A stretch of 64,000 nucleotides of DNA from Methylobacterium sp. 77 (GTDB lineage: Bacteria; Pseudomonadota; Alphaproteobacteria; Rhizobiales; Beijerinckiaceae), in the NCBI RefSeq assembly GCF_000372825.1, contig NZ_KB910516.1, positions 1,892,011 to 1,956,010 of the forward strand. Reading direction: 5' to 3'. Positions 11,818 to 27,548 of the stretch are shown here, piece after piece. Within the stretch, counting starts at the first letter, position 1. The number at the start of each line of letters is the position of its first letter. Below the pieces are notes generated by a model that saw only the letters and a list, made by a program, of their open reading frames with translations, did not search any database and was not told where the DNA came from. Both the position numbers and the translations under genes were made by a program.

Positions 11818-13053
11818 TCAGGCCCGCAGCAGATCCCTCATGCCGGGTGCCTTCTCGCTGCCCGGGAAGACCTTCTCGGAGAGGACCTTCTCCTCGAAGC
11901 CGAACTGGTCCATCAGCAGGCCCTTCATCACCGCACGCAGATCCATCGTCGGCGCGAGGTCACGCCCCTCGTAGAGGGCGTTCTCCTTCAGGCTCGGCCA
12001 ATCGGCGATCACGCGCCCGCCGGCGACCGCGCCTCCGACGAGGAAGGCCACCGTCGCCGTGCCGTGGTCGGTGCCGGAGGAGCCGTTCACGTGCACGGTG
12101 CGGCCGAATTCGGTGACGATCAGGACCGATGTCTGCGCCCAGGACTGGCCGAGCCCCTCCTTGATCGCCGCCATGCCGGCATCGAGCGAGGCGAGGTTCT
12201 TGGCGAGGCGTCCTTCGTAGGGGCCTTGCGAGGCATGGGTGTCCCAGCCGTCGAAATTCATCACGGCGATGCGCGGGCCGGTGACCGGGGCCATCAGCGA
12301 GGCCGCGGCGCGGGCCGCCGATGCGAAGCTGTTCGGCCCCTTCAGCGGCTGCTTGCCCATCGCCGCCATGCTCGGGTCGGCTGCGATGAAGTCGTCGACC
12401 TGCACGCCTTCGCGCAGGGCGTTGGCCAGGGCCTGGTCCTTGTCGTCGTAGAGCGCCTGGAGGCGCATCAGCGTATCGGCGGCGGCGTAGGGCATGGTCT
12501 GCGGCTGCCACGTCTCCACCTGGGCGGCGCCGCGCAGGATGAGCGGCGTCGTCGCGCTCACGGAGAGGGCCTTGGTCGGCCGCAACTCGATGCCCTTCGC
12601 CTTCGGAATCAGGGTCAGCGCCCGGTTGAGCCAGCCGGTATCGAGATCGGAGCCGGCGCGCGTCATACCGTTCTCGAGCACCTGTTGCGCGTCGAAATGC
12701 GAGCGGGCGCGGTAGGGCGTCGCGACGGCGTGGAAGAGCGTGGCCTCGCGCTTGGCGTAGAGGTCGGCCAAATTCGGCATCGAGGGGTTGAGCGAGAACA
12801 GCGGATCGAGCCGGAACGGCGTATGCGAGGGCGAGAGCTTGAAGTCGGAGCGGATCGCCGCGAATTGCGGGTCGCCCACAGGCATCACCGCCGAGAGGCC
12901 GTCGAGGCCGCCGCGCAGCACCACCACGAGGAAGCGCGGGTCGCGGCCGGATGCGGCCCAGACCTTCGGCACGTAGGGCCACGCGAAGAGGGCGCCGGCG
13001 CCGAGCAGCAGGTTGCGGCGCGATGGAAGATGGGCGTGTTCGTCGGGATTCAT
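11818..13053 (-). CDS. DUF1501 protein, Tat-exported
   Basis: A 411-residue DUF1501 protein (sulfatase/alkaline-phosphatase-like fold). It carries a twin-arginine signal (SRRNLLLGAGALFAW, residues 11-25), then FLVVVLRGGLDGLSAV, HFDAQQVLENG, FDGWDTHASQGP, VTEFGRTVHVNGSSGTDHG and the C-terminal LRAVMKGLL. Tat export suggests it folds, perhaps with a metal, before reaching the periplasm. It lies 22 bases after the DUF1800 gene. The DUF1800-DUF1501 pair is common in bacteria but its function is not established. Confidence 0.88.
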   Translation of the reverse strand: MNPDEHAHLPSRRNLLLGAGALFAWPYVPKVWAASGRDPRFLVVVLRGGLDGLSAVMPVGDPQFAAIRSDFKLSPSHTPFRLDPLFSLNPSMPNLADLYAKREATLFHAVATPYRARSHFDAQQVLENGMTRAGSDLDTGWLNRALTLIPKAKGIELRPTKALSVSATTPLILRGAAQVETWQPQTMPYAAADTLMRLQALYDDKDQALANALREGVQVDDFIAADPSMAAMGKQPLKGPNSFASAARAAASLMAPVTGPRIAVMNFDGWDTHASQGPYEGRLAKNLASLDAGMAAIKEGLGQSWAQTSVLIVTEFGRTVHVNGSSGTDHGTATVAFLVGGAVAGGRVIADWPSLKENALYEGRDLAPTMDLRAVMKGLLMDQFGFEEKVLSEKVFPGSEKAPGMRDLLRA

Positions 13054-13075
13054 GGACTCGTCGCCTCTCGACCGG

Positions 13076-14560
13076 CTATCGCCGCTGGAATTCGGGGCTG
13101 AGCATCAGCAGGGCCAATGCCTGTTCCGGGCTCTCGCCCTGTCTGATCACGCGCCGCGTCTCGTCCGAGAAATAGCCGCCGATCCGGTCGTCGATGAGTT
13201 TGCGGATATCGACATGGTCGGCGTTGAGCATCGCGCATTGCTGCGCCCAGTCGATCCGGCTCTTGATGCCGTCGGAGGTCACCCAGGCATCGTCCTCCTC
13301 GGCCCAGCCCTTCGGGGACGGGGCCGCCAGGAACGGCTGGCCCATCGCCAGGAGCGAGGCTTTCGGGGACGGCTTGACCGGTGCCCGTCCGATCAGGCGG
13401 CCGGTCGCGGCGAGGAATTCCATCGGCGGACGCAGCTTGATGGGAGGGGCCGTCCAGGCCTCGTCGCTCTGGACCAGCGCCGCCGTCACCGCCTTCAGGT
13501 CGCCGTCGCTGTCCCGGAAGACCTTGGCGAGACCCTTCTGCAGGGAGTCGGACACCTTCTCCGAGACGAAGGCGCGCGCCATCCGCCGGGTCACGTAGCG
13601 CGCCGTGGAGGGGTGGCGGGTCAGGTCGGCCAGGACGGCGTGGAATTCCTCGGCGCCCGCCTCCGCATAGCGCTTGCCGAGGATCGTCTTCGGTCCCGGC
13701 TGATGCTGGCGCTCGCGGAATACCACCTCGCCGAAGGTCTCGGAATTCGGCTTGAGATCCACGGTCCAGCCGGTGAGGACGGCGGCGAGCGCGGTGACGT
13801 CGGCCTGGCTGTAGCCGCCATCGACGCCGAGGGTGTGAAGCTCCAGCACCTCGCGCCCGAGATTCTCGTTGAGCCCGGATTTCTTGATGCGGCCCACCTT
13901 CGAATCCGGCCCCGTCGAGGAGGCGTTGTCGAGGTAGTAGATCATCGAGGCGTGCAGGATCGCGGCCTTGGCCATGTCGTGGAACCGGCCGAGGACGAAC
14001 GGCCGTATGGCCTCGCGCTGGAACGCGCCCGCCGTGAGGCTGGTCTTTCCCTTGCCTGCGGCCACGGTGAAGTGGTTGCTCCAATGCAGGAACAGCCGCT
14101 CCTGCAGGGGCGCCCTCGTCGTCACCGCGAGTTTCAGCCACGCGAGCAGCTCGGCCGGGTTCTTGGTGAGAGGGTTCTCGGCGAGCTTCGCCTCGCCGTC
14201 ATCCTCCATCATGCCGCCGGCCATCGACGGTTCGGCGGGTGACCCCATCGCCATCCCGCCGGACTTCATGTCGCCCGCCTGCATGCCGCCGGTCTTCATG
14301 CCGCCGGTCTGTTTGGGCTTCGCCGCGTCCATCCCGGCATCGGCCATCGCCTCGCGGCGCTGACGCGCCACCTGACGGCGGGCGATCATCGCCTGCAACT
14401 GGCCGCTGCTGGAATTCAGCTTCGCCTCGGGGACCGGCGTCGGCATGTCGAGCTGCGCGCGGACATATCCGTGCGGATCGTCGACGGCCGCGCCGTCATT
14501 CGCACCGTAGCCGAGGCCGAAACGTCCGACTGCATTCGCGAATGCCAGGTTTCGGCTCAT
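13076..14560 (-). CDS. DUF1800 family protein with Met/Gly-rich insert
   Basis: A 494-residue DUF1800 protein, partner of the downstream DUF1501 gene. Conserved parts include RFGLGYGA near the N-terminus, LFLHWSNHFTVAAGKGK, FLDNASS-like segment YYLDNASSTG, NENLGREVLELHTLGVDGGY, TGWTVD and the C-terminal LLMLSPEFQRR. A low-complexity insert at about residues 85-118 has repeated GGM units (TGGMKTGGMQAGDMKSGGM). The start at 14560 has GGAG six bases upstream; ATGs at 14566 and 14575 are alternatives. Further upstream the open frame runs into the tRNA gene, so longer starts are wrong. Confidence 0.85.
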   Translation of the reverse strand: MSRNLAFANAVGRFGLGYGANDGAAVDDPHGYVRAQLDMPTPVPEAKLNSSSGQLQAMIARRQVARQRREAMADAGMDAAKPKQTGGMKTGGMQAGDMKSGGMAMGSPAEPSMAGGMMEDDGEAKLAENPLTKNPAELLAWLKLAVTTRAPLQERLFLHWSNHFTVAAGKGKTSLTAGAFQREAIRPFVLGRFHDMAKAAILHASMIYYLDNASSTGPDSKVGRIKKSGLNENLGREVLELHTLGVDGGYSQADVTALAAVLTGWTVDLKPNSETFGEVVFRERQHQPGPKTILGKRYAEAGAEEFHAVLADLTRHPSTARYVTRRMARAFVSEKVSDSLQKGLAKVFRDSDGDLKAVTAALVQSDEAWTAPPIKLRPPMEFLAATGRLIGRAPVKPSPKASLLAMGQPFLAAPSPKGWAEEDDAWVTSDGIKSRIDWAQQCAMLNADHVDIRKLIDDRIGGYFSDETRRVIRQGESPEQALALLMLSPEFQRR

Positions 14561-14814
14561 TGTCATCTCCGGCATCCGGCGCCGCCGGCCGAGAGGCCTG
14601 GCACCGGATGTAAGCGCGGGCAATACAGGTTCGGTCTGAGGCGGTTCTGTGGCCGTGCCGCGCGTCTCACGCCGCGGCACCTCTCGTCTCACGCAAGCGT
14701 GACGATTGCCGTCACGGCTCGGAAGCGCGACGCGAGTGCGCCCGTCTGTCCGTGAAGTATCGTGAGGGTATCGTCCGTGCCGGCCAGGTGCCGTGACATC
14801 GCAGGACGATGGAA

Positions 14815-14889
14815 TGGTGGGCGCGACAGGGATCGAACCTGTGACCCCTACCATGTCAAGGTAGTGCTCTCCCGCTGAGCTACGCGCCC
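14815..14889 (-). tRNA. tRNA-Val (anticodon GAC)
   Basis: The minus strand gives a complete cloverleaf: acceptor GGGCGCG pairing with CGCGCCC, D-arm containing AGCTCAGCGGGAGAGC, anticodon stem CTACC/GGTAG with loop TTGACAT (anticodon GAC), T-arm with GGTTCGATCC, discriminator A, and an encoded CCA at 14815-14817. It is a valine acceptor. Confidence 0.97.
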
Positions 14890-15669
14890 GGCTGAAGCGT
14901 CTCCGCTGCAGCGAGGAGCGGCCTATAGCTTCTGGCTGGAACGGGCGTCAAGGGGCTTGTCGCTGGAAAGCGGCTCGTCGCTGCGATGAAGCCATGCCCG
15001 GCAAGGTGCTTCCGGCTGGAACCGGGGAAGGAAGGGGCGCCCTGCCGGAACCGACGGTTCGGTCACCCGCGCCATCCTCCGCGACCGGCACGAACCTCGT
15101 AGCGCCAAAACCATCGGGGGGACTCATGTTGCAGCGCGGCGACGCATCGAAGAAAAGATGCCGGGAGTGGCCCTGATAGCGTGCTTCCGGCGCCCCGCCG
15201 GGAGAGCTTTAGTAAGCGACGTCTCAGTCGCTGTTCGGCGGGTGGAGTTTTTTCTTTCATGCCATCGAAATAACGACAAATATAATTGCGATAATCAGGC
15301 GATGCTGTGCCACTTTCATGGAAATGATTGCCATTTCAAATTTTATTTGACCATGATTAGGATTAATTAAGATATTATTTTGCACTCGAATGAAACTAAA
15401 TTGACTTAACGTGATTAATGCAGATATTTTGCATTATTCGGAAGTAAAATTCAGTTGAAAATCCTGAATCGTGACTTCTGTGCGTTTGAATGCCCCGGCG
15501 CACGCGTCGCTGTGCGAGCGCTAACATTTGTTGTGAGATTTATGTCGGTCGTCGAGACTGCCTATTGCCTGCCGCGCATAAAGTCTTCGTGCTGCAGCAA
15601 CGCTGCCATGGGTTGGACACGGTTTCGGGCGCATACTAAGGATCGTGAAGACAGCCGATCCGTCGCGAG
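14890..15669. other. long leader region with AT-rich island before the polyketide synthase
   Basis: About 780 bases between tRNA-Val and the synthase without a convincing gene. The first half has the usual high GC content. From about 15240 to 15480 it is strikingly AT-rich, unlike nearly all the rest of the window. This should hold the promoter and regulatory sites of the polyketide operon. The imperfect direct repeat in it is listed separately. Confidence 0.6.
15361..15433. promoter_or_regulatory. imperfect direct repeat in AT-rich leader, candidate regulatory site
   Basis: Positions 15361-15384 and 15413-15433 share GATTAAT-xx-AGATAT followed by TTTTGCA or TTTGCA, with two mismatches and a three-base gap. 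The start-to-start distance is 52 bases, about five helical turns, so two bound protein units could face the same side. The site lies about 240-300 bases before the synthase start. Whether it is a regulator site is inference. Confidence 0.4.
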
Positions 15670-18600
15670 ATGGCGGTTTCCTCGTTCAAGAGCGTGTGCG
15701 AATCGAACGTGATCAAGCGTACAGACATAGCGATCGTCGGCCGTTCGTGCCGTTTGCCCGGCGCGCCCAGCATCGATGGCCTCTGGCAGCTTCTGAGCGA
15801 AGGACGTTGCGCCGTCGGTCGCATTCCTGACGATCGCTGGTCGCTGGAGCGGTTCGGCCATCCGCGCGCGCAAGAGCGCGGCAAGAGCTACACCTGGTCG
15901 GCCGGTGTTCTCGACGACATCTGGTCGTTCGACCCCGGCGTCTTCGGCATCTCGCCGCGCGAGGCCGAGCAGATGGACCCGCAGCAGCGGCTCCTGCTCG
16001 AGCTGACCTGGGAAGCCCTGGAGGATGCGGGCTTGCGCCCCTCCGCCGTGGCCGGGACCGAGATCGGCGTGTTCGTGGGCGCCTCGTCCCTCGATTACGG
16101 CAACCTGCGCGTCCTCGATACGTCCTCCGGCGACGCCTACGCCGCGACCGGCAACACGCTCTCGATCCTGTCCAACCGGATCTCCTACATCTACGATCTC
16201 AAGGGGCCGAGCTTCACCGTCGACACGGCCTGTTCCTCGTCGCTTGTGGCGCTCGATGCCGCCGTGGCCGCGATCGCCAGCGGCCGGATCGACACCGCCG
16301 TGGTCGCGGGTGTGAACCTGCTCGCGAGCCCGTTCAACTTCATCTGCTTCTCCAACGCGCAGATGCTGTCGCGCACCGGGCTCTGCCAGGCCTTCTCGGC
16401 CAATGCCGACGGCTATGTCCGCTCCGAGGGCGGTGTCGTCCTGGTGCTGAAATCGGCGCGCGCCGCGGCGCGAGACGGCGATACCGTGCGCGGCGTCATC
16501 GCGGCGAGCGGCGTGAATTCCGACGGCCGCACCACCGGCATCTCGCTTCCGTCCGGCTACGCGCAGGGCGCGCTGCTCGAGCAGATCTATCGCGAGGCCG
16601 AGATCGATCTCGATGCGGTGGCGTTCGTCGAGGCCCACGGCACCGGGACCGCCGTGGGTGACCCGATCGAGGCCGGCGCCATCGGCGGCAAGATCGGCAA
16701 GCCCCGTCGGGAGCCCCTGCCGATCGGCTCGATCAAGAGCAATATCGGCCATACCGAGCCTGTCTCCGGCCTCGCCGGCCTGCTCAAGGCGAGCCTCGCC
16801 CTGGAGCACGACCTGCTGCCGCCCTCGCTGCATGCGGCCGAGCTCAATCCCGACATCCCCTTCACCACGCTCAACTTGGCAGTGGTCACCGCGCCGCTGG
16901 CGCTCCCGCGCGGCAGGGGCGAGCGCTTCGCCGGCGTCAACTCGTTCGGCTTCGGCGGCACCAACGCCCATATCATCCTCACGGACGGCACCCCCGCCGA
17001 CGCCAAGCCAGCATCGCTACCGAGCGACGCTCCGCGCGCTCCGGAACTGCTGCTGCTCTCGGCCCAGAGCCGCGCGGCGCTCAACGAACTCGCCCTCGAT
17101 TATGCCGACAGGTTCGAAGCGGCCGGTGCCGCCGAGACCGTGCGCATCGCCGCCGCCGCCGCTCATCGGCGCGAGCGCCTGTCCACCCGCCTCGCCTTGC
17201 CCCTCGACGCGGACCTGCCCGCCACCCTGCGCGCCGTGGCCGATGCCGAGGAGACCGACATCGCGCGGGTCGGCACCGCCGTCGACCGCAATGCCGAGGT
17301 CGCCTTCGTCTATTCCGGCAATGGCAGCCAATGGGCGGGAATGGGCCGTGAGGCCTATGACCGCAACGCCGTCTACCGCGCGGCCTTCGACCGGATCGAC
17401 GTCCTGTTCGCCGAGATTTCGGGCTGGTCGCTGAAGGAGGCCCTGTTCGCCGAGGACCTCGCCGAGCGCATGGTCCTCACGCGGGTCTCGCAGCCGCTGA
17501 TCTTCGCGATCTCCAGCGCCTCGACCACGGCCCTGAAGGCCGCCGGCCTCGTCCCGTCCTACGTGCTCGGCCACAGCGTCGGCGAGATCGCGGCGGCGGA
17601 AGGTGCCGGCATCCTGAGCCTCGAACAGGCGGTGAAGGTCATCTTCCACCGCAGCCAGCATCAGGAGACGACGCGGGGCCTCGGCACCATGGCGGTGCTG
17701 CTGGCGCCGGTGGAGGAGATCGAGATCTTCCTCAAGGATTATCCGAGCCTCGACATCGCCGCCTATAACAGCCCGAAAGCCGTCACCGTGGCGGGGCCCG
17801 TCGCCGATATCGACGCGGCGATGAAGGCGCTGGCGCGCAAGCGCCGTCGTGGTCGCAAGCTCGACCTCGCCTATCCCTTCCACGGCCGGCTGATGAACCC
17901 GACCGAGAAGCCGTTGCTGCGCGATCTCGCGGGGCTCAAGCCCCATCCCGGCACGATCGCCATGGTCTCCACCGTGACCGGCGCCGTGCTGCCCGGCGCG
18001 CGGTTCGATGCCGGCTACTGGTGGCGCAACATCCGCGAGCCGGTGCGCTTCTGCGATGCGGTTCAGGAAGCGACCCGCAAGGGCGCCCGCATCTTCGTCG
18101 AGGTCGGCCCGAGGGCGACCCTGCTGCCGCATATCGGCGATTGCATCGAGCCGCTCGGCATCGAGAACGCCACGGTGGGCGTGCTCACCAACAAGCCCGT
18201 CGGCAGCGACCCGTTCGCCCGCGCTCTCGCCTCGGCCCTCGTCAACGGCGCCGCGGTCGATGAGGCGGCGGTGTTCGGCGAGAACCCGAAGGGCGATGTC
18301 GCGCTTCCGACCTATCCCTGGCAGCGCCGGCCGTTCCGGCTGGCCGAGACCTCCGAAGGCGTCGGCGCGGCGACCGCCCGCGCCTATCACCCGCTCTACG
18401 GATCGCGGGTCTCGCCCGACGGGCTCGAATGGACCGGCCATCTCGACATCGCCACGGTGCCCGAGCTCGACGACCACCGCATCGACGGCCAGGCGATCCT
18501 GCCCGGCGCCGCCTTCATCGAGATGGCGCTCGGCGTCGCCCGCGAGGCCATGCGCAGCGACGACGTGGTCCTCGCCGAATTCGAGATCCAGTCGCCGATG

Positions 18601-21600
18601 GTCTTCGGCGAGGACGCCCTGCGCGAAGTCGCGGTGCGGCTCTCGGGCAGCGGCAACCAGATCCAGATCCTCAGCCGTCCGCGTTTGACCCAGGCCGGCT
18701 GGCAGCTGCACGCCTCCGCCAAGATCGTGGACGGCACCTTCGCGGCGCGTCCGCGGCAGGACATCGACATCCCGGCCGAGAACGCCGTCGAGGGGGCCGG
18801 GCTCTATCGGCTCGCCGCCGCCTCCGGCCTCGATTTCGGGCCGAGCTTCCGCCAGGTCGCCCTCAGCGCCCGCGTGGACGAGACGGTGATCGTCTCCGAG
18901 CTGAAGCCGGCGGAATCGGACCCGCGTTTCGGCCTCGTGCCGGCCCGGCTCGATTCGTGTTTCCACGGCCTGATCCTGCTCTTCGCCGACCTGCTAGGCG
19001 AGGGCTCGACCAAGGCCTACGTGCCGGTGCGCTTCGGCGAAATCCGGCTGATCCGGCCCGGCGCCGTCATCGCCAAGGCGATGATCCGCACGCGGCGCTG
19101 CAACGAGCGCAGCATCCTGGCGGACTTCACCCTGGTCGACGAGGCCGGCGAGGTGATCGCCACCCTGCGCGAGGGCCGCTTCCAGGCCCTGCGCGCCAAA
19201 TCCGGCCAGGATCTCGCCGCCTACGCCATCGCGCAAAGGTCCGAGCTCGCCACCGAACCCACCGCGATCCCCCTCGACCGCCGGGCCCGCATCGCCGATG
19301 CCGTCCGTCCGGGCATCAAGGCGGCCCTCGCGCCTGCCGATGCGGCGCTCTCGCCGGGCCACCTGCTTCTCGAAGGCTGGGCCACCTCGCTGGCCTACCG
19401 CATGGCCGAGGGGCTGCAGCGATCGGGCGCCGTCGCCATCGACGAGCGCGTGCCGGAACCGATGCGGCCCTGGCTCCTCAACGCGCTCTACGCCCTCGAG
19501 AGCAGCGGCCTCGCCACCCTCGACGGGACGCGCTGGACCCTGCGCAAGGACGTCACCCTGCCGGCGCCCGAAGAGATCATGCGCTGGATCGCGGCCGACC
19601 ATCCGGAATTGTCCGCCGAACTGGTGCTCACGGCCGATCTCGGCGCCGTGGTCGCCCGTCTTCTCTCCGGCGACCTCGCGAGCCCGCCCACCCTGTCGCA
19701 GAACGCGCTCGACGCCTTCGTCCTGCGCAGCGCCAGCGCCCGCGCCTCGTCCGACGTGATCGCCGGAATCCTCGACGGCGCCCGCGCCGACCTGCCGACC
19801 GACCGCTCCCTGCGCCTGCTCCAGCTCGGGTTCGGGCCGCTCTCGGCCCAGGCCGCCGCTTTCGCCGACGGCATCGCCGCGCAGCTCACCGTGTTCGAGA
19901 CCGACCGGCGCCTCGCCGAGCGCGCCCGCCTCGCCTTGCCGCGCGGCGTCGCCGTGATCGAGGACGAGGCCGAGCTGGCGGAAGGCGGCTTCGACGCGAT
20001 CCTGGCGAGCAACGTGCTGCACCGGACCGGGCGCGGCCTCCTCGGCAAGATCGCCGATGCCCTCGCCACCGGCGGTTTCCTGCTGGCGGTGGAGCCCGGC
20101 GCCTCGCTGTTCCGCGATCTCGTCTTCGGCCTGATGCCGGATTGGTTCGAGGGTTCCGACGAGATGCCTCTCGGGCGCCTCGACGACATCACCGGCTGGC
20201 AGCGCTCGCTGAGCGAGACCGGCCTCGTCCGCGTCGCCGTCGACCGGGCCGCCTCGGCCAATGGCGACGACCTCCTGTTCCTGGCCGAAGCCCCGGTACG
20301 GGCCAAGCCCTCGACGGGCCAAACCTTCACCTTCATCATCGGCTCGCAGGATTCCTTCGCGGCCGAGACCGCCTCGTCGCTGGCGACCCTGCTGGTGGCG
20401 GCCGGCGTCCATGTCTCGATCATCCTCGATTCCGAGCAATCGCTGCTCGAACTCGAACGCGAGAGCCCCGATACGGTGGTGTTCCTCGCCGGGGCCTTCG
20501 GCGCGGGCGGTGAGGCCGCCGACCGGCTGCGCGAGCGCTGCCTCGGTCTCAAGCGCTGCGTCGAGCATCTCGGGACGCGCCAGACCCGCCTCTGGGTCGT
20601 CTGTCCCGGCGCGACGCGCCACGACGGCAGCGCCGACGGAGCGGTGGAAGCCGGGCTCTGGGCCTTCACCCGTACCCTCGCCAACGAGGTCGCCACCCTC
20701 GACATCCGCCGCATCGACCTCACCGAGGCGATGCCGACGAAGCTGGCCTCCGAGCGCCTGCGCGACGTGATCCTCTCCGGCACGAGCGAGACCGAGATCG
20801 TCCTCGACATCGACGCCACCCGCGTGATCCGGTTCTCGCCGGGGCAGCTCTCGCGCCGGCCCGCCGCCGATGCCGTGGCCGCTCCGGCCGCACAGCTCGA
20901 GCGCAGCGTCACCGGCGGTCTCAACGACATGCAATGGGGGCCGGCCGAGCGGCGCGCTCCCGGACGCGGAGAGGTCGAGATCGCCGTGGAGGCCACCGGC
21001 CTCAACTTCCGCGACGTGCTCTGGGCGCTGTCGATGCTCCCGGAGGAGATCCTGGAGGACGGCTTCGCCGGTCCGCGCCTCGGCCTCGAAGTGGCCGGCC
21101 GCGTGGTCTCGGTGGGCAAGGGCGTCGCCGCCTTCAAGGTCGGCGATCCCGTCGTCGCCTTCGCCCAGTCGGGCTTCTCGACCCATATCGTGGTGCCCGA
21201 GCTCGTGGTGGCGCCGAGCCCGCCCGGCCTCGATCCGCAGGCGGCGGCCACCGTGCCGGTGGCCTTCCTCACCGCCTATTACAGCCTCGTCAGCTGCGCC
21301 AAGCTGCGGCGCGGCGAGTGGGTGCTGGTCCATGGCGGCGCCGGCGGCGTCGGCCTCGCCGCGCTCCAGATCGCCAAGCTGAAGGGTGCGCGCGTCATCG
21401 CCACCGCCGGCTCGCGCGAGAAGCGCGCCCTGGTGAAGGCCCTGGGCGCCGAGCACGTCCTCGATTCGCGCTCGCTGGCCTTCGTCGACGACGTGCGCCG
21501 CATCACCGGCGACGGCGTCGGCGTGGTGCTGAACAGCCTGTTCGGCGAGGCGATGGAGCGCAGCCTCAACTGCCTGAAGCCGTTCGGCCGCTTCATCGAA

Positions 21601-23136
21601 TTGGGCAAGCGCGACTACGTCGCCAACACCCATATCGGCCTGCGCCCGTTCCGGCGGAACCTGTCGTATTTCGGCGTCGATCTCGATCAGGTGCTCCAGC
21701 ACCAGGGCGAGGACGGGGCGCGCCTGTTCCGCGAGGTGATGGCCCTGTTCTCGGAAGGCGGCCTCAAGCCCCTGCCGTTCCAGCCCTTCACCTCCGACGA
21801 GGTCTCCGACGCGTTCCGGCTGATGCAGCAATCCGGGCATGTGGGGAAGATCGTCATCGCCCCGCCCAAGCCCGGCCGCATCACAATCGGGCGCAGGTCG
21901 GACTTCACGGTCTCCACCGAGGGCGTCCACCTCATCACCGGAGGGCTCGGCGGCTTCGGCATCGAGGCTGCGCGCTGGCTCGCCGACCGGGGTGCCCGTC
22001 ACCTCGTTCTCGTCGGACGCAAGGGCGCGTCGAGCCCGGAGGCCAAGCAGGTCGTGGCCGACCTCGCGGCCCGCGGCGTCAGCGTCGCCGCGATGGCCTG
22101 TGACATCACCAGCCGCAAGGCGGTGGCCGATCTCCTCGACGAGGTCGAGAGCGGCGGCCGCAGGCTCGCCGGCGTGATCCACGGGGCGATGGTCCTGCAG
22201 GACGGCCTCATCGCCAATCTCGACGCGGCCGCCCTCGACGCCGTGATCCGTCCGAAGGTGGTCGGTGCCGAGCATCTCGATGCCGCCACCCGCGAGCGGC
22301 AGCTCGATTACTTCGTGCTGTTCTCCTCGGCCACGACCTTCATCGGCAATCCGGGACAGGGCGCCTACGTCGCCGCCAACGGGTTCATGGAGGGCCTTGC
22401 CCGCCGTCGCCGGGCGCTGGGCCTGCCGGCCCTCGCCGTGGCCTGGGGCGCGATCGGCGATGTCGGTGTGCTCGCCCGCAACCGCGCCGTGATGGAGACC
22501 CTGGCCGGCCGCGTCGGCGTGACGCCGATGGATGCCCGCCGCTCCCTCGACCTGATGGCCGAGGCGCTGGAAGGACAGGGCTCGACCCCCGACGACGCCG
22601 TCATCGCCATCGCCTCGATGCATTGGGGCAAGGCTCGCGAGCGCCTCGCGACCATGCGCTCGCCGAGCTATGGCGATCTCGGCTCCGACCAGCAGGCGGA
22701 ATCCGGCACGGTGACCGCCATCGATATCGGCGGACTGCTCAAGAATCTGGACCTCGACGCGGTGCGCAAGACCGTCTCCGACGCCATCGTCGAGGACATC
22801 GCCCGCATCCTGCGCCTGCCCAAGGACGACATCAGCCGCGTGCGCCATCTCTCCGAGATCGGCCTCGACTCGCTGATGGGCGTGGAACTCGGCGCCAGCC
22901 TGCAGGAGCGCTTCGCCCTCGACGCGCCGCCCTCGGGCATTTCCTCGGGCCTCACCGTCGTCGAACTGGCGGAGACTCTGATCCAATCCGTGGCGGCCCC
23001 GGTGGACGACGCCTCGGCGGCGGTGATGAGCCTGGCCCAGCGCCATGCCAGCGAGGGCGTCGACGTGCGCACCCTCGAGCCGTTCCACGAGCTCGTTGAG
23101 CAGAACAGTCTCCAGATCAAAGAAATTCTGCCATGA
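15670..23136 (+). CDS. reducing type I polyketide synthase, KS-AT-DH-(MT)-ER-KR-ACP
   Basis: A 2488-residue single-module, fully reducing and probably iterative synthase. KS about 15-440: Cys188 in DTACSSS, His323 in HGTGT, His361 in NIGHTE. AT about 545-850: Ser636 in GHSVGE and His738 in YPFHG. DH about 905-1190: His936 in HRIDGQAILP and Asp1095. A methyltransferase-like region (about 1250-1520) has LASNVLHRTGRG but a degenerate SAM motif (QLGFGPL). ER about 1748-2060: HGGAGGVG at 1888. KR about 2085-2275: ITGGLGGFG, Tyr2233. ACP: Ser2401 in GLDSLMG. There is no thioesterase. The order matches highly reducing fungal synthases such as Fum1. The ATG at 15670 has a poor ribosome site; GTGs at 15694 and 15709 are alternatives. 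Confidence 0.93.
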   Translation: MAVSSFKSVCESNVIKRTDIAIVGRSCRLPGAPSIDGLWQLLSEGRCAVGRIPDDRWSLERFGHPRAQERGKSYTWSAGVLDDIWSFDPGVFGISPREAEQMDPQQRLLLELTWEALEDAGLRPSAVAGTEIGVFVGASSLDYGNLRVLDTSSGDAYAATGNTLSILSNRISYIYDLKGPSFTVDTACSSSLVALDAAVAAIASGRIDTAVVAGVNLLASPFNFICFSNAQMLSRTGLCQAFSANADGYVRSEGGVVLVLKSARAAARDGDTVRGVIAASGVNSDGRTTGISLPSGYAQGALLEQIYREAEIDLDAVAFVEAHGTGTAVGDPIEAGAIGGKIGKPRREPLPIGSIKSNIGHTEPVSGLAGLLKASLALEHDLLPPSLHAAELNPDIPFTTLNLAVVTAPLALPRGRGERFAGVNSFGFGGTNAHIILTDGTPADAKPASLPSDAPRAPELLLLSAQSRAALNELALDYADRFEAAGAAETVRIAAAAAHRRERLSTRLALPLDADLPATLRAVADAEETDIARVGTAVDRNAEVAFVYSGNGSQWAGMGREAYDRNAVYRAAFDRIDVLFAEISGWSLKEALFAEDLAERMVLTRVSQPLIFAISSASTTALKAAGLVPSYVLGHSVGEIAAAEGAGILSLEQAVKVIFHRSQHQETTRGLGTMAVLLAPVEEIEIFLKDYPSLDIAAYNSPKAVTVAGPVADIDAAMKALARKRRRGRKLDLAYPFHGRLMNPTEKPLLRDLAGLKPHPGTIAMVSTVTGAVLPGARFDAGYWWRNIREPVRFCDAVQEATRKGARIFVEVGPRATLLPHIGDCIEPLGIENATVGVLTNKPVGSDPFARALASALVNGAAVDEAAVFGENPKGDVALPTYPWQRRPFRLAETSEGVGAATARAYHPLYGSRVSPDGLEWTGHLDIATVPELDDHRIDGQAILPGAAFIEMALGVAREAMRSDDVVLAEFEIQSPMVFGEDALREVAVRLSGSGNQIQILSRPRLTQAGWQLHASAKIVDGTFAARPRQDIDIPAENAVEGAGLYRLAAASGLDFGPSFRQVALSARVDETVIVSELKPAESDPRFGLVPARLDSCFHGLILLFADLLGEGSTKAYVPVRFGEIRLIRPGAVIAKAMIRTRRCNERSILADFTLVDEAGEVIATLREGRFQALRAKSGQDLAAYAIAQRSELATEPTAIPLDRRARIADAVRPGIKAALAPADAALSPGHLLLEGWATSLAYRMAEGLQRSGAVAIDERVPEPMRPWLLNALYALESSGLATLDGTRWTLRKDVTLPAPEEIMRWIAADHPELSAELVLTADLGAVVARLLSGDLASPPTLSQNALDAFVLRSASARASSDVIAGILDGARADLPTDRSLRLLQLGFGPLSAQAAAFADGIAAQLTVFETDRRLAERARLALPRGVAVIEDEAELAEGGFDAILASNVLHRTGRGLLGKIADALATGGFLLAVEPGASLFRDLVFGLMPDWFEGSDEMPLGRLDDITGWQRSLSETGLVRVAVDRAASANGDDLLFLAEAPVRAKPSTGQTFTFIIGSQDSFAAETASSLATLLVAAGVHVSIILDSEQSLLELERESPDTVVFLAGAFGAGGEAADRLRERCLGLKRCVEHLGTRQTRLWVVCPGATRHDGSADGAVEAGLWAFTRTLANEVATLDIRRIDLTEAMPTKLASERLRDVILSGTSETEIVLDIDATRVIRFSPGQLSRRPAADAVAAPAAQLERSVTGGLNDMQWGPAERRAPGRGEVEIAVEATGLNFRDVLWALSMLPEEILEDGFAGPRLGLEVAGRVVSVGKGVAAFKVGDPVVAFAQSGFSTHIVVPELVVAPSPPGLDPQAAATVPVAFLTAYYSLVSCAKLRRGEWVLVHGGAGGVGLAALQIAKLKGARVIATAGSREKRALVKALGAEHVLDSRSLAFVDDVRRITGDGVGVVLNSLFGEAMERSLNCLKPFGRFIELGKRDYVANTHIGLRPFRRNLSYFGVDLDQVLQHQGEDGARLFREVMALFSEGGLKPLPFQPFTSDEVSDAFRLMQQSGHVGKIVIAPPKPGRITIGRRSDFTVSTEGVHLITGGLGGFGIEAARWLADRGARHLVLVGRKGASSPEAKQVVADLAARGVSVAAMACDITSRKAVADLLDEVESGGRRLAGVIHGAMVLQDGLIANLDAAALDAVIRPKVVGAEHLDAATRERQLDYFVLFSSATTFIGNPGQGAYVAANGFMEGLARRRRALGLPALAVAWGAIGDVGVLARNRAVMETLAGRVGVTPMDARRSLDLMAEALEGQGSTPDDAVIAIASMHWGKARERLATMRSPSYGDLGSDQQAESGTVTAIDIGGLLKNLDLDAVRKTVSDAIVEDIARILRLPKDDISRVRHLSEIGLDSLMGVELGASLQERFALDAPPSGISSGLTVVELAETLIQSVAAPVDDASAAVMSLAQRHASEGVDVRTLEPFHELVEQNSLQIKEILP

Positions 23137-23202
23137 TCCGTCCGGCCGGCCGAAAGGCCGGCCGCGCTCGGCGGCATCGGTCAATCGGAAGATTCAACAG
23201 GC

Positions 23203-24576
23203 ATGAGTAATCCAGCCCGCCCCGACGGCGGCCGCGCGGCGCTCGCGGGCTTCGTCACGAACCGGCTCGGCCGCAACGCCAACCGGCAGGCCGCCCCACG
23301 TCCCGAGGCGAAGGCGACGGACGCGTCGGTGCAGAAATTCGAATCCCTGCCCGGCTACCGCGAATTGCGGCTGCAGCGCTCGGCCGCCGACCTGATCGGC
23401 CTCGGCAATCCGTTCTTCCGGGTCCACGAGACCAGGGCCGGAGCCACCACCCGCATCGCCGGCAAGGGCTTCATCAATTTCTCGTCCTACGATTACCTCG
23501 GGCTCAACGGGCATCCGGACGTGAGCGAGGCGGCGCGTCGGGCCATCGACGAGTTCGGCACCTCGGCCTCCGCGAGCCGGATCGTCGCCGGTGAGCGCCC
23601 TGGCCATATCCGCCTCGAACAGGCGCTCGCCGACCATTACGAGACCGAGGCCTGCGTGGTGATGGTGAGCGGCCACGCCACCAACGTCACCACCATCGGC
23701 GCCCTGCTGGAACCCGGCGACGTGATCTTCCACGACGCGCTGAGCCACAACAGCATCGTCACCGGAGCCCAGCTCTCGGGCGCCCAGCGCCGCTCCTTCG
23801 CCCATAACGATCTCGACGCCCTGGAAACCCTGCTCGGCGCCACCCGCCACGAGCACCGTCGCGCGCTGATCGTGGTCGAGGGTCTCTACAGCATGGACGG
23901 CGACGCGCCGGACCTTGCCGGACTCGTCGCGCTGAAGCAGCGCTACGATGCCTGGCTGATGGTCGACGACGCCCACGGGCTCGGCGTCCTCGGCCGGACC
24001 GGCGTCGGCCTCGCCGAGCATTGCGACATCGACCCGCGCCTCGTCGACATCTGGATGGGCACGCTGTCGAAGACGCTGTCCTCCTGCGGCGGCTACATCG
24101 CCGGCCCGGCGGCGCTGATCGAATATCTGAAATGCACGGCCGGCGGCTTCATCTACAGCGTCGGCCTGTCCCCGCCGCTGGCCGCTGCCGCCGAGGCGTC
24201 CCTCGCCCTGATGCAGGCCGAGCCGCACCGGGTGGAGCGCCTGCGCCAGAACGGCCACCTGTTCCTGTCCTGCGCCAAGAAGCACGGGCTCGATACCGGA
24301 ACCAGCCTCGGCCTCGCCGTCATTCCCGTCATCGTCGGGGATTCGCTGAAATCGGTCACCCTGTCGGACCGCCTGTTCAAGCGCGGCATCAACGTGCAGC
24401 CGATCATCCACCCGGCCGTGCCCGAGCGCTCGTCGCGCCTGCGCTTCTTCATCACCTCCGAGCACACGCCCGAACAGATCCGCGAGACCGTGGCGGCGGT
24501 GGCCGAGGAACTCGCCGAGATCGAGAAGGGCGGCTCGCTGATCGAGCAGCTGATGGCCAAGCGCGGCAAGCCCTGA
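23203..24576 (+). CDS. alpha-oxoamine synthase family PLP enzyme (serine palmitoyltransferase-like)
   Basis: A 457-residue fold-type I PLP enzyme related to serine palmitoyltransferase, AONS (BioF) and Kbl, which join an acyl thioester to an amino acid with loss of CO2. It shows FSSYDYLGL, DALSHNSIV, VVEGLYSMDGD, DDAHGLGVLG and the PLP lysine Lys290 in TLSKTLSSCGGY; the C-terminus has INVQPIIHPAVP and LRFFITSEHT. A variable 45-residue N-terminal extension precedes the core. It lies 66 bases after the thioesterase-lacking synthase, so it most likely releases the ACP-bound chain as an amino ketone. Which amino acid is used cannot be read from sequence. Confidence 0.9.
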   Translation: MSNPARPDGGRAALAGFVTNRLGRNANRQAAPRPEAKATDASVQKFESLPGYRELRLQRSAADLIGLGNPFFRVHETRAGATTRIAGKGFINFSSYDYLGLNGHPDVSEAARRAIDEFGTSASASRIVAGERPGHIRLEQALADHYETEACVVMVSGHATNVTTIGALLEPGDVIFHDALSHNSIVTGAQLSGAQRRSFAHNDLDALETLLGATRHEHRRALIVVEGLYSMDGDAPDLAGLVALKQRYDAWLMVDDAHGLGVLGRTGVGLAEHCDIDPRLVDIWMGTLSKTLSSCGGYIAGPAALIEYLKCTAGGFIYSVGLSPPLAAAAEASLALMQAEPHRVERLRQNGHLFLSCAKKHGLDTGTSLGLAVIPVIVGDSLKSVTLSDRLFKRGINVQPIIHPAVPERSSRLRFFITSEHTPEQIRETVAAVAEELAEIEKGGSLIEQLMAKRGKP

Positions 24577-24604
24577 GCTTGTCCCACCGGCTGATGCCAC
24601 ACCG

Positions 24605-24631
24605 CACCGACCCATGATGGCGGGGTCGGTG
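24605..24631. terminator. hairpin after the polyketide operon
   Basis: CACCGACCC at 24605-24613 pairs perfectly with GGGTCGGTG at 24623-24631 around a nine-base loop, about 30 bases past the oxoamine synthase stop. No T-run follows, so it may be a weak or factor-assisted terminator shared with the convergent azlD gene. Confidence 0.5.
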
Positions 24632-24669
24632 TGATCCGGCGGACGAAGGCCGCCGCGCGATGGCCGGTC

Positions 24670-24969
24670 TCAGCCCAGCACGTGCCGCAGCAGGCCCGTC
24701 GCCACGATGGCGGTGAGAATGGTCGGCAGCATCGGCCAGCGCGTCGCGACGACGAGGGTGATCGCGAGGCCGATGAGATCGGCCGGATGGCTCGAGATGA
24801 AGCTCGGCGCGATCATGGCGATGAAGACGCAGCCGGGGGCGGCCTCCATCACCGCGGCGGCGCGGGGACCGAGATCCCTGTTGCGCAGGAGCACGTAGCC
24901 GGCGATCCGGGTCAGGTAGGTGGCGCCGGCCATCAGCAGGATGGTGAGAACCGTGGCTGAGGGCATCAT
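24670..24969 (-). CDS. azlD: AzlD family branched-chain amino acid exporter subunit
   Basis: A 99-residue, highly hydrophobic protein with three or four transmembrane helices and the AzlD-typical TYLTRIAGYVLL near the start, then EAAPGCVFIAMIAP and a final LLRHVLG. With AzlC it forms an inner-membrane exporter of branched-chain or related amino acids. Its ATG at 24969 overlaps the azlC stop by four bases (ATGA); a second ATG follows at 24966. Confidence 0.88.
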   Translation of the reverse strand: MMPSATVLTILLMAGATYLTRIAGYVLLRNRDLGPRAAAVMEAAPGCVFIAMIAPSFISSHPADLIGLAITLVVATRWPMLPTILTAIVATGLLRHVLG

Positions 24970-25706
24970 GACTTCGCCGACATCAGGTAGGCGCAGAGGA
25001 GGCCCGACAGCGCCCCTGCCGGGATGCACCAGGCTCCGGGTGCGACGAGGCCGATCGCCCCGGCGACGACCAGGCTGACCAGCCAGGGCTGCGCCGCCCG
25101 GACACCGCGCCACATGCCGCGCAGGAGCACGAGGAAGACCGCCGGAAACGCCATGTCGAACCCATAGGACTCGACCGGGCCGAGGACCGGGCCGATTCCG
25201 GCGCCGAGGGTTGTGAAGGCCACCCAGACGAAGAAGATCGGCAGGCTCGCGCCGGCGTAATAGAGCAGGCTGAACGCGGCTGGCACCCCGCGCGCGGCGC
25301 GGTTTCTGGTGTCGGCCAGCGACATCGCCCAGGTCTCGTCGCACATGAGGAAGAGGGCGGCGAGCGCCTTCCATCGCGGCAGGCGCTTCAGGAACGGCGC
25401 CAGCGCCGCGCTCATGAGAATGTGGCGGCTGTTCACCATCGCGGTGACGGACACGATCAGGAGGATGTCGGGCACCGCGCTCCACAGCCGGATCGCGGCG
25501 AATTCCGAGCCTCCGGCGTAGTTCAGCCCGGCCATCAGCGCCATCTCGATCGGGCTGAGGCCCTTCTGGGCGGCCTGCGCCCCCAGGACGAGGGCAAAGG
25601 GCAGGATGCCGACCAGGACCGGGGCACAGGCCACGACCCCGCGCCGGAACTCGGAGGCGTCGCTCCGTTGCGGGTTCACGCACCCGTCGATCTGCAAGGC
25701 CCGCAT
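24966..25706 (-). CDS. azlC: AzlC family amino acid exporter
   Basis: A 246-residue membrane protein with about eight hydrophobic segments. Family signatures are VLVGILPFALVLGAQA, LMAGLNYAGGSEFAAI, VNSRHILMSAAL and MCDETWAMSLAD. AzlC is the large subunit of the AzlCD (BrnFE/YgaZH-like) exporter. It is transcribed with azlD and is divergent from an Lrp/AsnC regulator, the classic layout for this exporter. Export of branched-chain amino acids or methionine is likely but not certain. Confidence 0.92.
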   Translation of the reverse strand: MRALQIDGCVNPQRSDASEFRRGVVACAPVLVGILPFALVLGAQAAQKGLSPIEMALMAGLNYAGGSEFAAIRLWSAVPDILLIVSVTAMVNSRHILMSAALAPFLKRLPRWKALAALFLMCDETWAMSLADTRNRAARGVPAAFSLLYYAGASLPIFFVWVAFTTLGAGIGPVLGPVESYGFDMAFPAVFLVLLRGMWRGVRAAQPWLVSLVVAGAIGLVAPGAWCIPAGALSGLLCAYLMSAKS

Positions 25707-25827
25707 CGGTCACTCTCGCCGGCCGGTCAAAGGCGGCGTCTCGTCTGTGTTTCGGAATGCGCGGCATCCTATTCCAACAGGGGCGCAACGAGGTTGCGAA
25801 GATGATGATTCTGGGCTCTGAATTGGC

Positions 25828-26328
25828 ATGGATCGCCAATCCGTCCGCGATGCATGGAATCCAATGCCACTGATCATCGACGAGATCGACCGTCGCATCC
25901 TGCGCGCACTCCAGCAGGACGGGCGGATGCAGAACACCGAGCTCGCGAAGGCGGTGGGTCTGTCCCCCTCCCCCTGCCTGCGGCGGGTGCGGTTGCTCGA
26001 AGAGGCAGGCATCATCGCCCAGTACGTCGCGGTTCTCGATCAGGCCAAGGTGGGCATGGCGCTGACCTTCTTCGCCAGGATCTGGCTGAAAGCGCAGGAC
26101 GAGGTCACGATCAACCATTTCGCGACCGAGGTGAGGAAACTGCCGCAGGTGGTCGAGTGCTACCTGATGATGGGCGATTGCGACGCGATGCTGCGGGTGG
26201 TGGCGGCCGATATCCCTGCCTACCGCCGCTTCCAGTCGGAGCTTCTCAGTCGGATCAAGGGCGTGCAGAACGTCAAGACGGACGTTCCGAGCGAGACCAT
26301 CAAGAAGTCCTTCGTGCTGCCGCTATAG
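25828..26328 (+). CDS. Lrp/AsnC family transcriptional regulator
   Basis: A protein of up to 166 residues. The winged-helix part is seen in DEIDRRILRALQQDGRMQNTELA and SPSPCLRRVRLLEEAGII, and the C-terminal RAM ligand domain in VVECYLMMGDCDAMLRV. These regulators form octamers that sense amino acids. Divergent transcription from azlC suggests it controls the exporter. The first 12 residues lie outside the usual family start; the ATG at 25864 (MPLIIDEID) is an equally good start. Confidence 0.9.
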   Translation: MDRQSVRDAWNPMPLIIDEIDRRILRALQQDGRMQNTELAKAVGLSPSPCLRRVRLLEEAGIIAQYVAVLDQAKVGMALTFFARIWLKAQDEVTINHFATEVRKLPQVVECYLMMGDCDAMLRVVAADIPAYRRFQSELLSRIKGVQNVKTDVPSETIKKSFVLPL

Positions 26329-26378: not shown

Positions 26379-27548
26379 TCACAACACGCTGCCGACGCGG
26401 ACGCCCGTCGTGATCGGCGAGGCGGCGGCGGCGAAGACGGCGAGCACCTTCTTGATCTCGGTGAACGGCGCATTCGAGACGTAGATCATGTCGCGGTTGC
26501 GCATGCGGAAGGCCTGGGTGAGGAACAGGCTGTTGGGATCGCGCATGTCGAACCGATAGACCACCGGCACCAGCGGCGTGCCGAGCATCGGGCTTCCCGG
26601 CTTGAGGCGGCGCACCACCGGGGCCGGCTCGAAGCGGAACAGGAAGGTGCCGGTCGGATCGGCATCGGCATCGCTCTGGCCGCGCGCCTTGGCGAGCGCC
26701 TGCGCCAGGGTGATGCCCTCGGCCTGGAACGGGATTTCGTTGGACTGGCCGAGCGCGCCGATGGCGAGGAAGGTCTGGGGATCGCGGACCAGGGTGAGGT
26801 TGTCGTTGGGCCGCAGGTAGATGTTCTCTTTCGGGTTCGAGACGACGGTGGTCAGCGGCACCGTGGCCGTCGTTCCGCCGCGCGACAGGCGCACGAAGGT
26901 CTCGTTGACCGGCGTCTTCACACCCCCGGCCGTGGCGACGACATCGAGGATGCGGTCGCCCTGGGCACCGAGCGGGACGCGGGCGCCGCCGATGGATTCG
27001 CCGCCCACCGTCACCGATTGCGAGACCGGACGGGTCACCGAGACGATCACCTGGGGCTGGATCGCCTTGCCGGCGAGCTCGGTCTCGATCAGCGACTGGA
27101 CGTCCTGGGCGCGTCGTCCCGCGACCTTGATGCGGCCGGCATAGGGCACCGAGATGGCGCCGTCGCGCGAGACGATCTGCTCGGGCAGCTGCGCCGCCTT
27201 CGAGCCCGCCGACATCGAATTGACCGTGAGCGGTCCCGAATAGAGCCCGCCCGACCCTGCCTCGAACACCGAGACGGAGACCGCATCGCCGACGCCGATC
27301 ACCGGCTCGGCCGGCAGGCGCCGGTCTCCGAAGGAGGCGAGCAGGCTGTCGAGAGGACGGCCGCGCATGGCCTCGACCACGGCGGAGGTCACCTCGATGA
27401 ACTCGTAGCGGGCGAAGACCCCCTCGCTCGTCGCCTTGTCGGCCCCATCCACCACGGCCGAGGTCGACGGACCGGCGGCGGGCAGGAAGGCGTTGCAGCC
27501 GGACACCGAGACGGCGATGGCGACGGCCAGCGTGGCTTTGGGAAGCAT
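26379..27548 (-). CDS. polysaccharide export lipoprotein (Wza/KpsD-like)
   Basis: A 389-residue outer-membrane polysaccharide export protein. The N-terminus is a lipoprotein signal with lipobox VSGC (Cys18). The Poly_export domain starts near RLPAEPVIGVGDAVSVSVFEAG, followed by SLBB-like beta-grasp repeats (ISVPYAGRIKVAGRRAQDV; VPLGAQGDRILDVVATAGGV; IYLRPNDNLTLVRD). It likely forms the outer-membrane channel for the capsule assembled by the KpsC/KpsS-like proteins upstream on this map. It ends convergent to the Lrp gene, 50 bases away. Confidence 0.88.
   Translation of the reverse strand: MLPKATLAVAIAVSVSGCNAFLPAAGPSTSAVVDGADKATSEGVFARYEFIEVTSAVVEAMRGRPLDSLLASFGDRRLPAEPVIGVGDAVSVSVFEAGSGGLYSGPLTVNSMSAGSKAAQLPEQIVSRDGAISVPYAGRIKVAGRRAQDVQSLIETELAGKAIQPQVIVSVTRPVSQSVTVGGESIGGARVPLGAQGDRILDVVATAGGVKTPVNETFVRLSRGGTTATVPLTTVVSNPKENIYLRPNDNLTLVRDPQTFLAIGALGQSNEIPFQAEGITLAQALAKARGQSDADADPTGTFLFRFEPAPVVRRLKPGSPMLGTPLVPVVYRFDMRDPNSLFLTQAFRMRNRDMIYVSNAPFTEIKKVLAVFAAAASPITTGVRVGSVL

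Follow-up and report, generated by a model that had tools for sequence, protein, structure and literature searches.

A polyketide synthase and alpha-oxoamine synthase gene pair beside capsule genes of Methylobacterium sp. 77, probably serving a sphingoid capsule lipid

A type I polyketide synthase (PKS) gene at 15670-23136 and, on the same forward strand, a gene for a pyridoxal phosphate (PLP)-dependent alpha-oxoamine synthase (AOS) at 23203-24576 can be found in a 64,000-nucleotide stretch of Methylobacterium sp. 77 (contig NZ_KB910516.1, positions 1,892,011 to 1,956,010; hereafter the window), which belongs to a genome of 4.66 Mb. The pair is of a known kind, that of RkpA/RkpG and SgaA/SgaB, and thus has precedents. 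With moderate confidence, it is read here as part of an rkp-1-type capsule lipid locus, in which PKS, AOS and a nearby short-chain dehydrogenase/reductase (SDR) would make a long-chain sphingoid base used as lipid acceptor or anchor of the capsule. Very probably the product of the pair is a long-chain amino ketone, as predicted from the encoded enzymes, and a role of the pair in capsule lipid is likely.

In the proposed mechanism, the iterative PKS would use its own acyl carrier protein (ACP) to assemble a long acyl chain in fully reduced form and, because it has no thioesterase, would hand this chain to the AOS. The latter would carry out a decarboxylative condensation of the chain with an amino acid, probably L-serine, yielding a 3-ketosphinganine, which the SDR would reduce to sphinganine; an LtaS/GacH-like protein would perhaps add phosphoglycerol to the sphingoid base. 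On this base as lipid acceptor, a KpsS-like and a KpsC-like protein would start the beta-linked 3-deoxy-D-manno-octulosonic acid (Kdo) linker, so that the base would become the membrane anchor of a capsular polysaccharide exported via a KpsD-like protein. In this way rkp-1-type loci would swap the (lyso)phosphatidylglycerol acceptor for a PKS-made sphingoid. The parts of the proposal are not equally firm: serine is the likely co-substrate of the AOS, whether the sphingoid directly accepts or anchors the Kdo linker stands in the balance, and a phosphoglycerol form of the sphingoid is tentative and rather doubtful.

The PKS is 2488 amino acids (aa) long and of the RkpA/WcbR/SgaA type, with the architecture KS-AT-DH-(degenerate methyltransferase-like)-ER-KR-ACP. 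At E up to 0.001, fifteen Pfam families match it, covering the KS, AT, DH, ER, KR and PP-binding domains, and none of the fifteen is a thioesterase. Its active-site motifs are intact: the KS carries the Cys/His/His motifs DTACSSS, EAHGTGT and NIGHTE, the AT GHSVG, the KR YxxxN and the ACP GLDS, and the DH motif HRIDGQAILP, which starts at residue 936, fits HxxxGxxxxP, taken here to be the DH consensus. Approximately 580 residues (about 1180-1764 by Pfam ends) separate DH from ER. The S-adenosylmethionine motif that a C-methyltransferase would carry is degenerate in this stretch, in the window protein as in five homologues, and the stretch looks like a methyltransferase-like remnant, an assignment of our own. 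The AOS gene, encoding 457 aa, starts 66 bp downstream of the PKS gene. Identity to Sinorhizobium meliloti homologues reaches 40% over 2509 columns for the PKS, whose homologue lies on pSymB, and 54% for the AOS. The first-pass annotation of this DNA, made from the letters and their reading frames, had described a fully reducing single-module PKS with an intact ACP serine and no thioesterase, followed 66 bases later by a serine-palmitoyltransferase-like PLP enzyme, and this description holds.

The two genes are conserved as a pair beyond chance. Among 80 AOS loci compared, mostly alphaproteobacterial, the PKS is on the same stretch in 77; it was not seen in L101, L103 and L118, although in L118 the sequence ends 553 bases upstream of the AOS. 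For the 47 loci whose AOS is at least 80% identical (46 titled Methylobacterium and one Beijerinckiaceae metagenome-assembled genome), tblastn covers at least 2478 of the 2488 PKS residues and the PKS ends at most 73 bp from the AOS. All 37 genus genomes searched for the AOS, that of the window included, carry it at no less than 76% identity, the closest named relatives being those of Methylobacterium sp. Leaf91 (98%) and M. bullatum (97%); among 24 genomes of other families of the order, it was found in three at 56-58%, a fourth giving a 39% match no better than those of paralogues. Outside the genus, the PKS is present in 19/19 further AOS regions from 18 genomes. PKS and AOS also occur together in five annotated proteobacterial plasmid clusters, and natural PKS-AOS fusions can be found in Planktothrix (L126), Streptomyces (L124) and one further genome (L191). 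The conserved pairing that the first-pass annotation had proposed to look for is therefore there, and the lack of co-occurrence that it had named as counter-evidence was not seen. Chance or recent foreign insertion is disfavoured by the presence of the AOS throughout the genus and by GC and GC3 values of the pair similar to those of neighbouring genes.

Regarding the phylogeny of the AOS, a quick tree of 55 rows, calculated without bootstrap and holding no canonical serine palmitoyltransferase or Kbl row, has one 41-row clade (SH-aLRT 97) that takes 39 of the 44 PKS-partnered rows. It comprises the window protein together with Sinorhizobium, Rhizobium, Shinella, Paraburkholderia, Caballeronia and Pseudomonas proteins, and only L101 and L103 among its rows have no PKS. 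The window AOS groups with the Sinorhizobium/Rhizobium homologues, whose rows are rkp genes by context and not by name, and apart from the BioF-like and 5-aminolevulinate synthase rows, which fall outside this clade. The PKS-partner label requires 4 changes on the tree, compared with 10.2 in shuffles. A separate five-row clade from the same phylum (L147, L166, L167, L168 and L172), 42-46% identical to the window AOS, is below every NCBIfam cut-off listed and has no PKS match in the short stretches compared.

Downstream of the pair, five capsule-side genes are found between 26379 and 33222, and the statement of the first-pass annotation that no further tailoring gene is adjacent was wrong. On the reverse strand are a polysaccharide export protein of the RkpU/KpsD-like type (Poly_export, SLBB; 26379-27548), a protein with an LtaS/GacH-type phosphoglycerol transferase domain of sulfatase fold (PF00884; 27820-29292) and a one-module KpsC-like beta-Kdo transferase (PF05159; 29289-30806). 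On the forward strand follow a KpsS-like capsule protein (31090-32397; PF05159, E 1e-78) and the SDR proposed as 3-ketosphinganine reductase (32452-33222). The KpsC-like and KpsS-like genes are the only two PF05159 genes of the genome, at distances of 4.9 and 6.8 kb from the AOS; KpsM-like and KpsE-like genes, the latter recognised by match to Shinella capsule proteins, can be found together at 3.64 Mb. The start of the KpsS-like gene at 31090 is a probable one, with an open frame from 30700 and homology beginning near 31123. Its protein scores 248 bits against the NCBIfam KpsS equivalog NF050054 (cut-off 600), hence below the cut-off, and the gene is presumably of the same kind as RkpJ. The KpsC structure 6mgd matches residues 171-453 of the KpsC-like protein (E 3.1e-64), whose start codon is uncertain, the true gene probably beginning further in. 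In six other genus genomes (G012, G015, G020, G024, G036 and G350), the KpsC frames are 676-709 aa long with a second PF05159 match, which may mean that members of the genus do not all have the same Kdo linker.

The LtaS-like gene may be the counterpart of RkpI, judging from its cluster position. A profile of its family (17 rows) matches the GacH structure (E 2.4e-34), then lipoteichoic acid primase and LtaS structures, and residues E232, T270, D435 and H436, which we take to be the LtaS-type catalytic positions, are invariant in the 17 rows; single-sequence searches of the Protein Data Bank (PDB) with the LtaS-like and KpsS-like proteins gave no match. The SDR of the Paraburkholderia cluster has the window SDR as its best match by far in this genome (45%, E 3.3e-48; next E 1.1e-18). 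The S. meliloti SDR was rejected as a finder of the reductase, ranking the window SDR only ninth of 25.

By kind, the rkp-1 gene set is present near the pair, with KpsS-like (RkpJ), LtaS-like (RkpI), SDR (RkpH) and exporter (RkpU) genes. In Sinorhizobium, rkpU lies 5' of the large rkpA, and rkpG to rkpJ are in the same region (PMC7902896, PMC3557214). Together, rkpA and rkpGHIJ apparently provide for the synthesis, modification and transport of a lipophilic molecule, possibly the lipid carrier or anchor of the K-antigen (PMC3557214), and rkp-1 mutants of rhizobia are K-antigen deficient, a specific lipid carrier being spoken of (PMC4881576). The cluster of S. meliloti Ak57 pSymB (L119) has the same gene kinds in that order, namely exporter, PKS, AOS, SDR, LtaS-like and KpsS-like genes, followed by KpsF; a profile located its LtaS-like gene, unlisted in the annotation, at 16292-17851. 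L119 appears to be rkp-1, judging from gene kinds and order and not from named sequences. In the window, unlike in L119, an unrelated insert precedes the capsule-side genes, some of which are on the opposite strand; there is also a KpsC-like gene, and the SDR is of the Paraburkholderia/Pseudomonas type.

Similar sets can be found among capsule genes in Paraburkholderia (L120), a Pseudomonas plasmid (L121), Shinella (L122) and Caballeronia (L123), although no KpsS-like gene was found in the stretch of the last. Between window and homologous clusters, identity is 40-42% for KpsS (four clusters), 41% for the KpsC module, 33-38% for the exporter and 31-33% for the LtaS-like protein; for the SDR it is 39-44%, falling to 30-31% against those of S. 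meliloti and Shinella. WcbT is presumably the AOS of the WcbR-type capsule PKS in Burkholderia relatives. The Paraburkholderia and Caballeronia clusters, which are of WcbR type, share with the window the SDR, LtaS-like, PKS and AOS genes, and the former also a KpsS-like gene. They differ by an LpxC-like deacetylase between PKS and AOS, of which a profile search found no match in the window cluster, and, in Paraburkholderia, by a GNAT after the AOS. WcbR and RkpA have been treated as one type (PMC3908369). The deacetylase was seen at L120:12926-13840 and L123:12991-13917 as well as in L159 and L186, and the GNAT in L120 and L159; these Burkholderia-type enzymes may trim or acylate the sphingoid amine.

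As to the chemistry, the iterative type I PKS and AOS of PfSgaAB from Pseudomonas fluorescens MYb115 give C24, C26 and C28 sphinganines, and further lipids are most likely phosphoglycerol sphingolipids; condensation of L-serine with a long acyl thioester has been shown for PfSgaB, and the SDR SgaC is the proposed reductase (PMC12134224). This two-gene system has an SDR in its cluster; all three kinds of genes can be found in the window, whose SDR is a candidate counterpart of SgaC. Unlike the reading given here, the main text of PMC12134224 draws no capsule link and has no word starting with "capsul", nor is a transferase for the phosphoglycerol sphingolipids named in the sections considered; the likeness to the window is one of description and not of sequence. 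Release of a reduced chain by decarboxylative condensation into a sphingoid-like amino ketone, as put forward in the first-pass annotation, remains the best reading, and such a reaction has been demonstrated for PfSgaAB, a bacterial pair of like architecture. In the fungal Fum1/Fum8 and other sphinganine-analogue PKS clusters, the PKS chain is released by an AOS. These are fungal toxin pathways, and the first-pass annotation had likened the pair to Fum1/Fum8, a comparison by description and not by sequence; the bacterial rkpA/rkpG-type and PfSgaAB pairs are nearer.

On the capsule side, KpsS of Escherichia coli adds Kdo to (lyso)phosphatidylglycerol and KpsC extends it (PMC10148158, PMC12220298). 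The window resembles such group 2 (ABC-transporter) systems by its KpsC-/KpsS-like and KpsD-like genes beside the pair, with KpsE-/KpsM-like genes elsewhere in the genome, and differs by having one KpsC module where E. coli has two; the lipid of group 2 capsules is (lyso)phosphatidylglycerol, with no PKS-AOS genes described in the parts of these papers considered (PMC10148158, PMC12220298). It is because the PfSgaAB chemistry, the E. coli KpsS/KpsC mechanism and the rkp-1 lipid-carrier idea can be put together that a sphingoid acceptor is proposed. A parallel exists in Porphyromonas gingivalis, where loss of sphingolipids lowers the K-antigen: a serine-palmitoyltransferase mutant has less, not zero, K-antigen capsule, and sphingolipid anchoring was speculated on in 2016 (PMC5126122). 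That system differs in phylum, in relying on the serine palmitoyltransferase gene PG1780 and in its dihydroceramides, no PKS being named in the parts considered (PMC5126122).

The linkage of the AOS with PF05159 was assessed in a class sample of 289 genomes (AOS match at E up to 1e-70) and a phylum sample of 398 genomes, with at most five and four AOS candidates, respectively, scored per genome. In the class sample, AOS is found in 13 genomes and PF05159 in 45, the latter in 8/13 genomes with AOS versus 37/276 without (p 1.4e-4). The corresponding numbers in the phylum sample are 25 and 80, with 16/25 versus 64/373 (p 8e-7), both p-values coming from overlapping samples of non-independent genomes, the phylum sample including six genomes of the window's genus with AOS. 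Physical closeness goes along with this association: in seven of the eight class genomes with both, AOS and PF05159 are 0.2-8 kb apart on one contig, and in the eighth (G082, AOS 43% identical) on different contigs. Among the 16 such phylum genomes, nine have them within 15 kb on one contig, in six the PF05159 matches listed are on contigs other than that of the AOS, and the last (G644) has a weak match with no position listed.

Within the genus, PF05159 is present in 41/41 genomes. Of the 47 loci with at least 80% AOS identity, 19 have at least 8 kb downstream, and nine of these show all five capsule-side genes. In the two split genomes looked at (G005 and G026), SDR, KpsS, KpsC, LtaS-like and exporter genes are together (L214, L216) and PKS-AOS is elsewhere (L213, L215). 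Because the capsule-side genes stay together in such split genomes, the locus looks like two modules that are neighbours here and separated in some relatives. Among 15 Roseibium/Stappia-type loci, KpsS is found in 15, KpsC in 13, SDR in 14 and the exporter in 14, and the LtaS-like gene in none at the thresholds set; in 15 other loci with 8 kb downstream, KpsS is found in one and SDR in five.

A specificity control compared AOS-bearing with AOS-less capsule regions. The former came from the 19 AOS regions of all 18 non-genus genomes with AOS identity of at least 52%, nine of which hold KpsS; the latter were 20 KpsS regions chosen from the listed strong matches, not all of them, in genomes of both samples without this AOS. 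The SDR family is near KpsS in 6/9 AOS-bearing versus 0/20 AOS-less regions (p 1.8e-4), a comparison in which the SDR, LtaS-like and KpsS profiles, built from cluster members, favour their own kin and thus the AOS-bearing group. Thresholds were set by us at 200 bits for SDR and LtaS-like and 250 bits for KpsS, or 80 bits if cut by the region end. The 52% split was made post hoc; it does not enter the class and phylum p-values, but it selected the 19 regions behind the control p-values. An SDR of either type is in 11/19 AOS regions.

Several observations weigh against a capsule lipid locus with a sphingoid anchor. LtaS/GacH relatives act outside the inner membrane and KpsS/KpsC in the cytoplasm, so that phosphoglycerol-sphinganine as acceptor would require flipping, unless the step concerns something else. 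The LtaS-like family is not clearly specific to AOS-bearing capsule regions (5/9 versus 3/20; p 0.067), the S. meliloti and window SDRs share only 30% identity, eight other SDRs of the genome being better matches to the former, and no KpsT was recognised beside the KpsE-/KpsM-like genes at 3.64 Mb. AOS and PF05159 are within 15 kb in only 15/37 genus genomes, more than 600 kb apart on one contig in five and on different contigs in 17; where 8 kb of downstream sequence is available, as in 19 Methylobacterium loci, capsule genes are missing from it in 10. Beyond the genus, 4/11 class genomes with AOS of at least 52% identity have no PF05159 (G249, which carries two PKS-AOS copies, G306, G337 and G340), most Reyranella loci have no KpsS in reach, and five PKS-partnered AOS rows (L124, L164, L165, L169 and L170) fall outside the main clade. 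The rkp-1 region is chromosomal in S. meliloti (PMC3557214), the cluster compared here being on a pSymB record, and the P. gingivalis mutant still makes capsule (PMC5126122).

In the most probable alternative, the pair would make a free sphingolipid, as in P. fluorescens MYb115, namely long-chain sphinganine and a phosphoglycerol derivative that would work in the membrane or in interaction with a host, and the capsule genes would be neighbours with no metabolic connection. It would fit the separation of the pair from capsule genes in part of the genus, the free sphinganines and phosphoglycerol sphingolipids seen as PfSgaAB products (PMC12134224), the silence of that main text on capsules, and six loci (L102, L105, L107 and L174-L176) with PKS, AOS and SDR but no KpsS in the stretch compared, the three genomes of L174-L176 having no PF05159 at all. 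Set against it are the association and closeness of AOS and KpsS/KpsC in the class and phylum samples and the K-antigen deficiency of rhizobial rkp-1 mutants (PMC4881576). Moreover, the locus-tag spacing of AOS and SDR in MYb115 (RS19800, RS19775) equals that in the Pseudomonas plasmid capsule cluster (RS26440, RS26415), suggesting that MYb115 too may carry the pair among capsule genes. Overall, a free sphingolipid is considered unlikely, and the membrane lipid or signal envisaged in the first-pass annotation is less likely than a capsule lipid carrier.

A second alternative, that the AOS uses glycine, alanine or a short acyl donor to make a non-sphingoid amino ketone for the capsule or a signal, appears distinctly improbable. 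The AOS is below every NCBIfam curated cut-off listed. It scores highest against bioF (361 bits, cut-off 426), and none of the canonical serine palmitoyltransferase equivalogs (299/640, 272/500 and 210/670 bits) or Kbl (glycine C-acetyltransferase) profiles (299/460 and 239/493 bits) is passed. Its nearest PDB sequences are BioF/Kbl-annotated and serine palmitoyltransferases alike. In alignments with structures of serine palmitoyltransferase and Kbl, GTLSKTLSS in the PLP-lysine region and VDDAHG are common or nearly so, and sequence does not decide which amino acid or chain length the AOS takes. An argument for a long chain nevertheless comes from its dedicated PKS, which is fully reducing and has no thioesterase, and a Kbl-like short-acyl enzyme is disfavoured by the family scores together with the PKS partnership. 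It is very improbable that the PKS feeds another lipid, e.g., very-long-chain acyl groups of lipopolysaccharide, with the AOS a bystander: its domain set would suit the making of any saturated long acyl chain, but PKS and AOS go together in 77/80 loci, in the five plasmid clusters and in fusions.

With regard to the sphingoid capsule lipid, the idea of a sphingolipid capsule anchor predates this work (PMC5126122), and no paper tying PKS-made sphingoids to capsule anchoring was found among the best-ranked matches of the literature searched; PMC13410964 does not bear on the idea. Joining the rkp-1 lipid question to the 2025 PKS-sphinganine finding gives a concrete, testable structure, with candidate genes named for the reductase and phosphoglycerol steps. 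More broadly, it can be hypothesized, if with slightly more doubt than belief, that many Gram-negatives with rkpA/rkpG-, wcbR- or sgaAB-type genes use a very-long-chain sphingoid made by a PKS, probably phosphoglycerol-sphinganine, to anchor their KpsS/KpsC capsule, replacing (lyso)phosphatidylglycerol, the LtaS/GacH-like protein being the missing phosphoglycerol-sphingolipid transferase. If true, sphingoid-anchored capsules would exist in the whole genus Methylobacterium and in rhizobial symbionts, and the published PKS sphingolipids would have a cellular role.

Around the locus, some further features can be mentioned. A 300-base AT-rich island directly 5' of the PKS gene (15200-15500; 38% GC, falling to 31% at 15250-15470, versus 68.3% for the window) is a possible regulatory region. 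In 23000-24800, a scan found no promoter-like site and one terminator-like site, on the opposite strand inside the AOS gene and at chance level. Between AOS and exporter, an AzlC gene (24966-25706), followed by what we presume to be an AzlD-like frame, and a divergent AsnC/Lrp regulator gene (25828-26328) form an amino-acid exporter and regulator unit (24670-26328) apparently unrelated to the pair. A formyltransferase-like gene (PF00551; 33219-34085, forward strand) overlaps the SDR gene by 4 bases, its membership in the system being uncertain. Upstream of the PKS, a DUF1501 and DUF1800 gene pair and a tRNA-Val gene (14815-14889) lie within 11818-14889.

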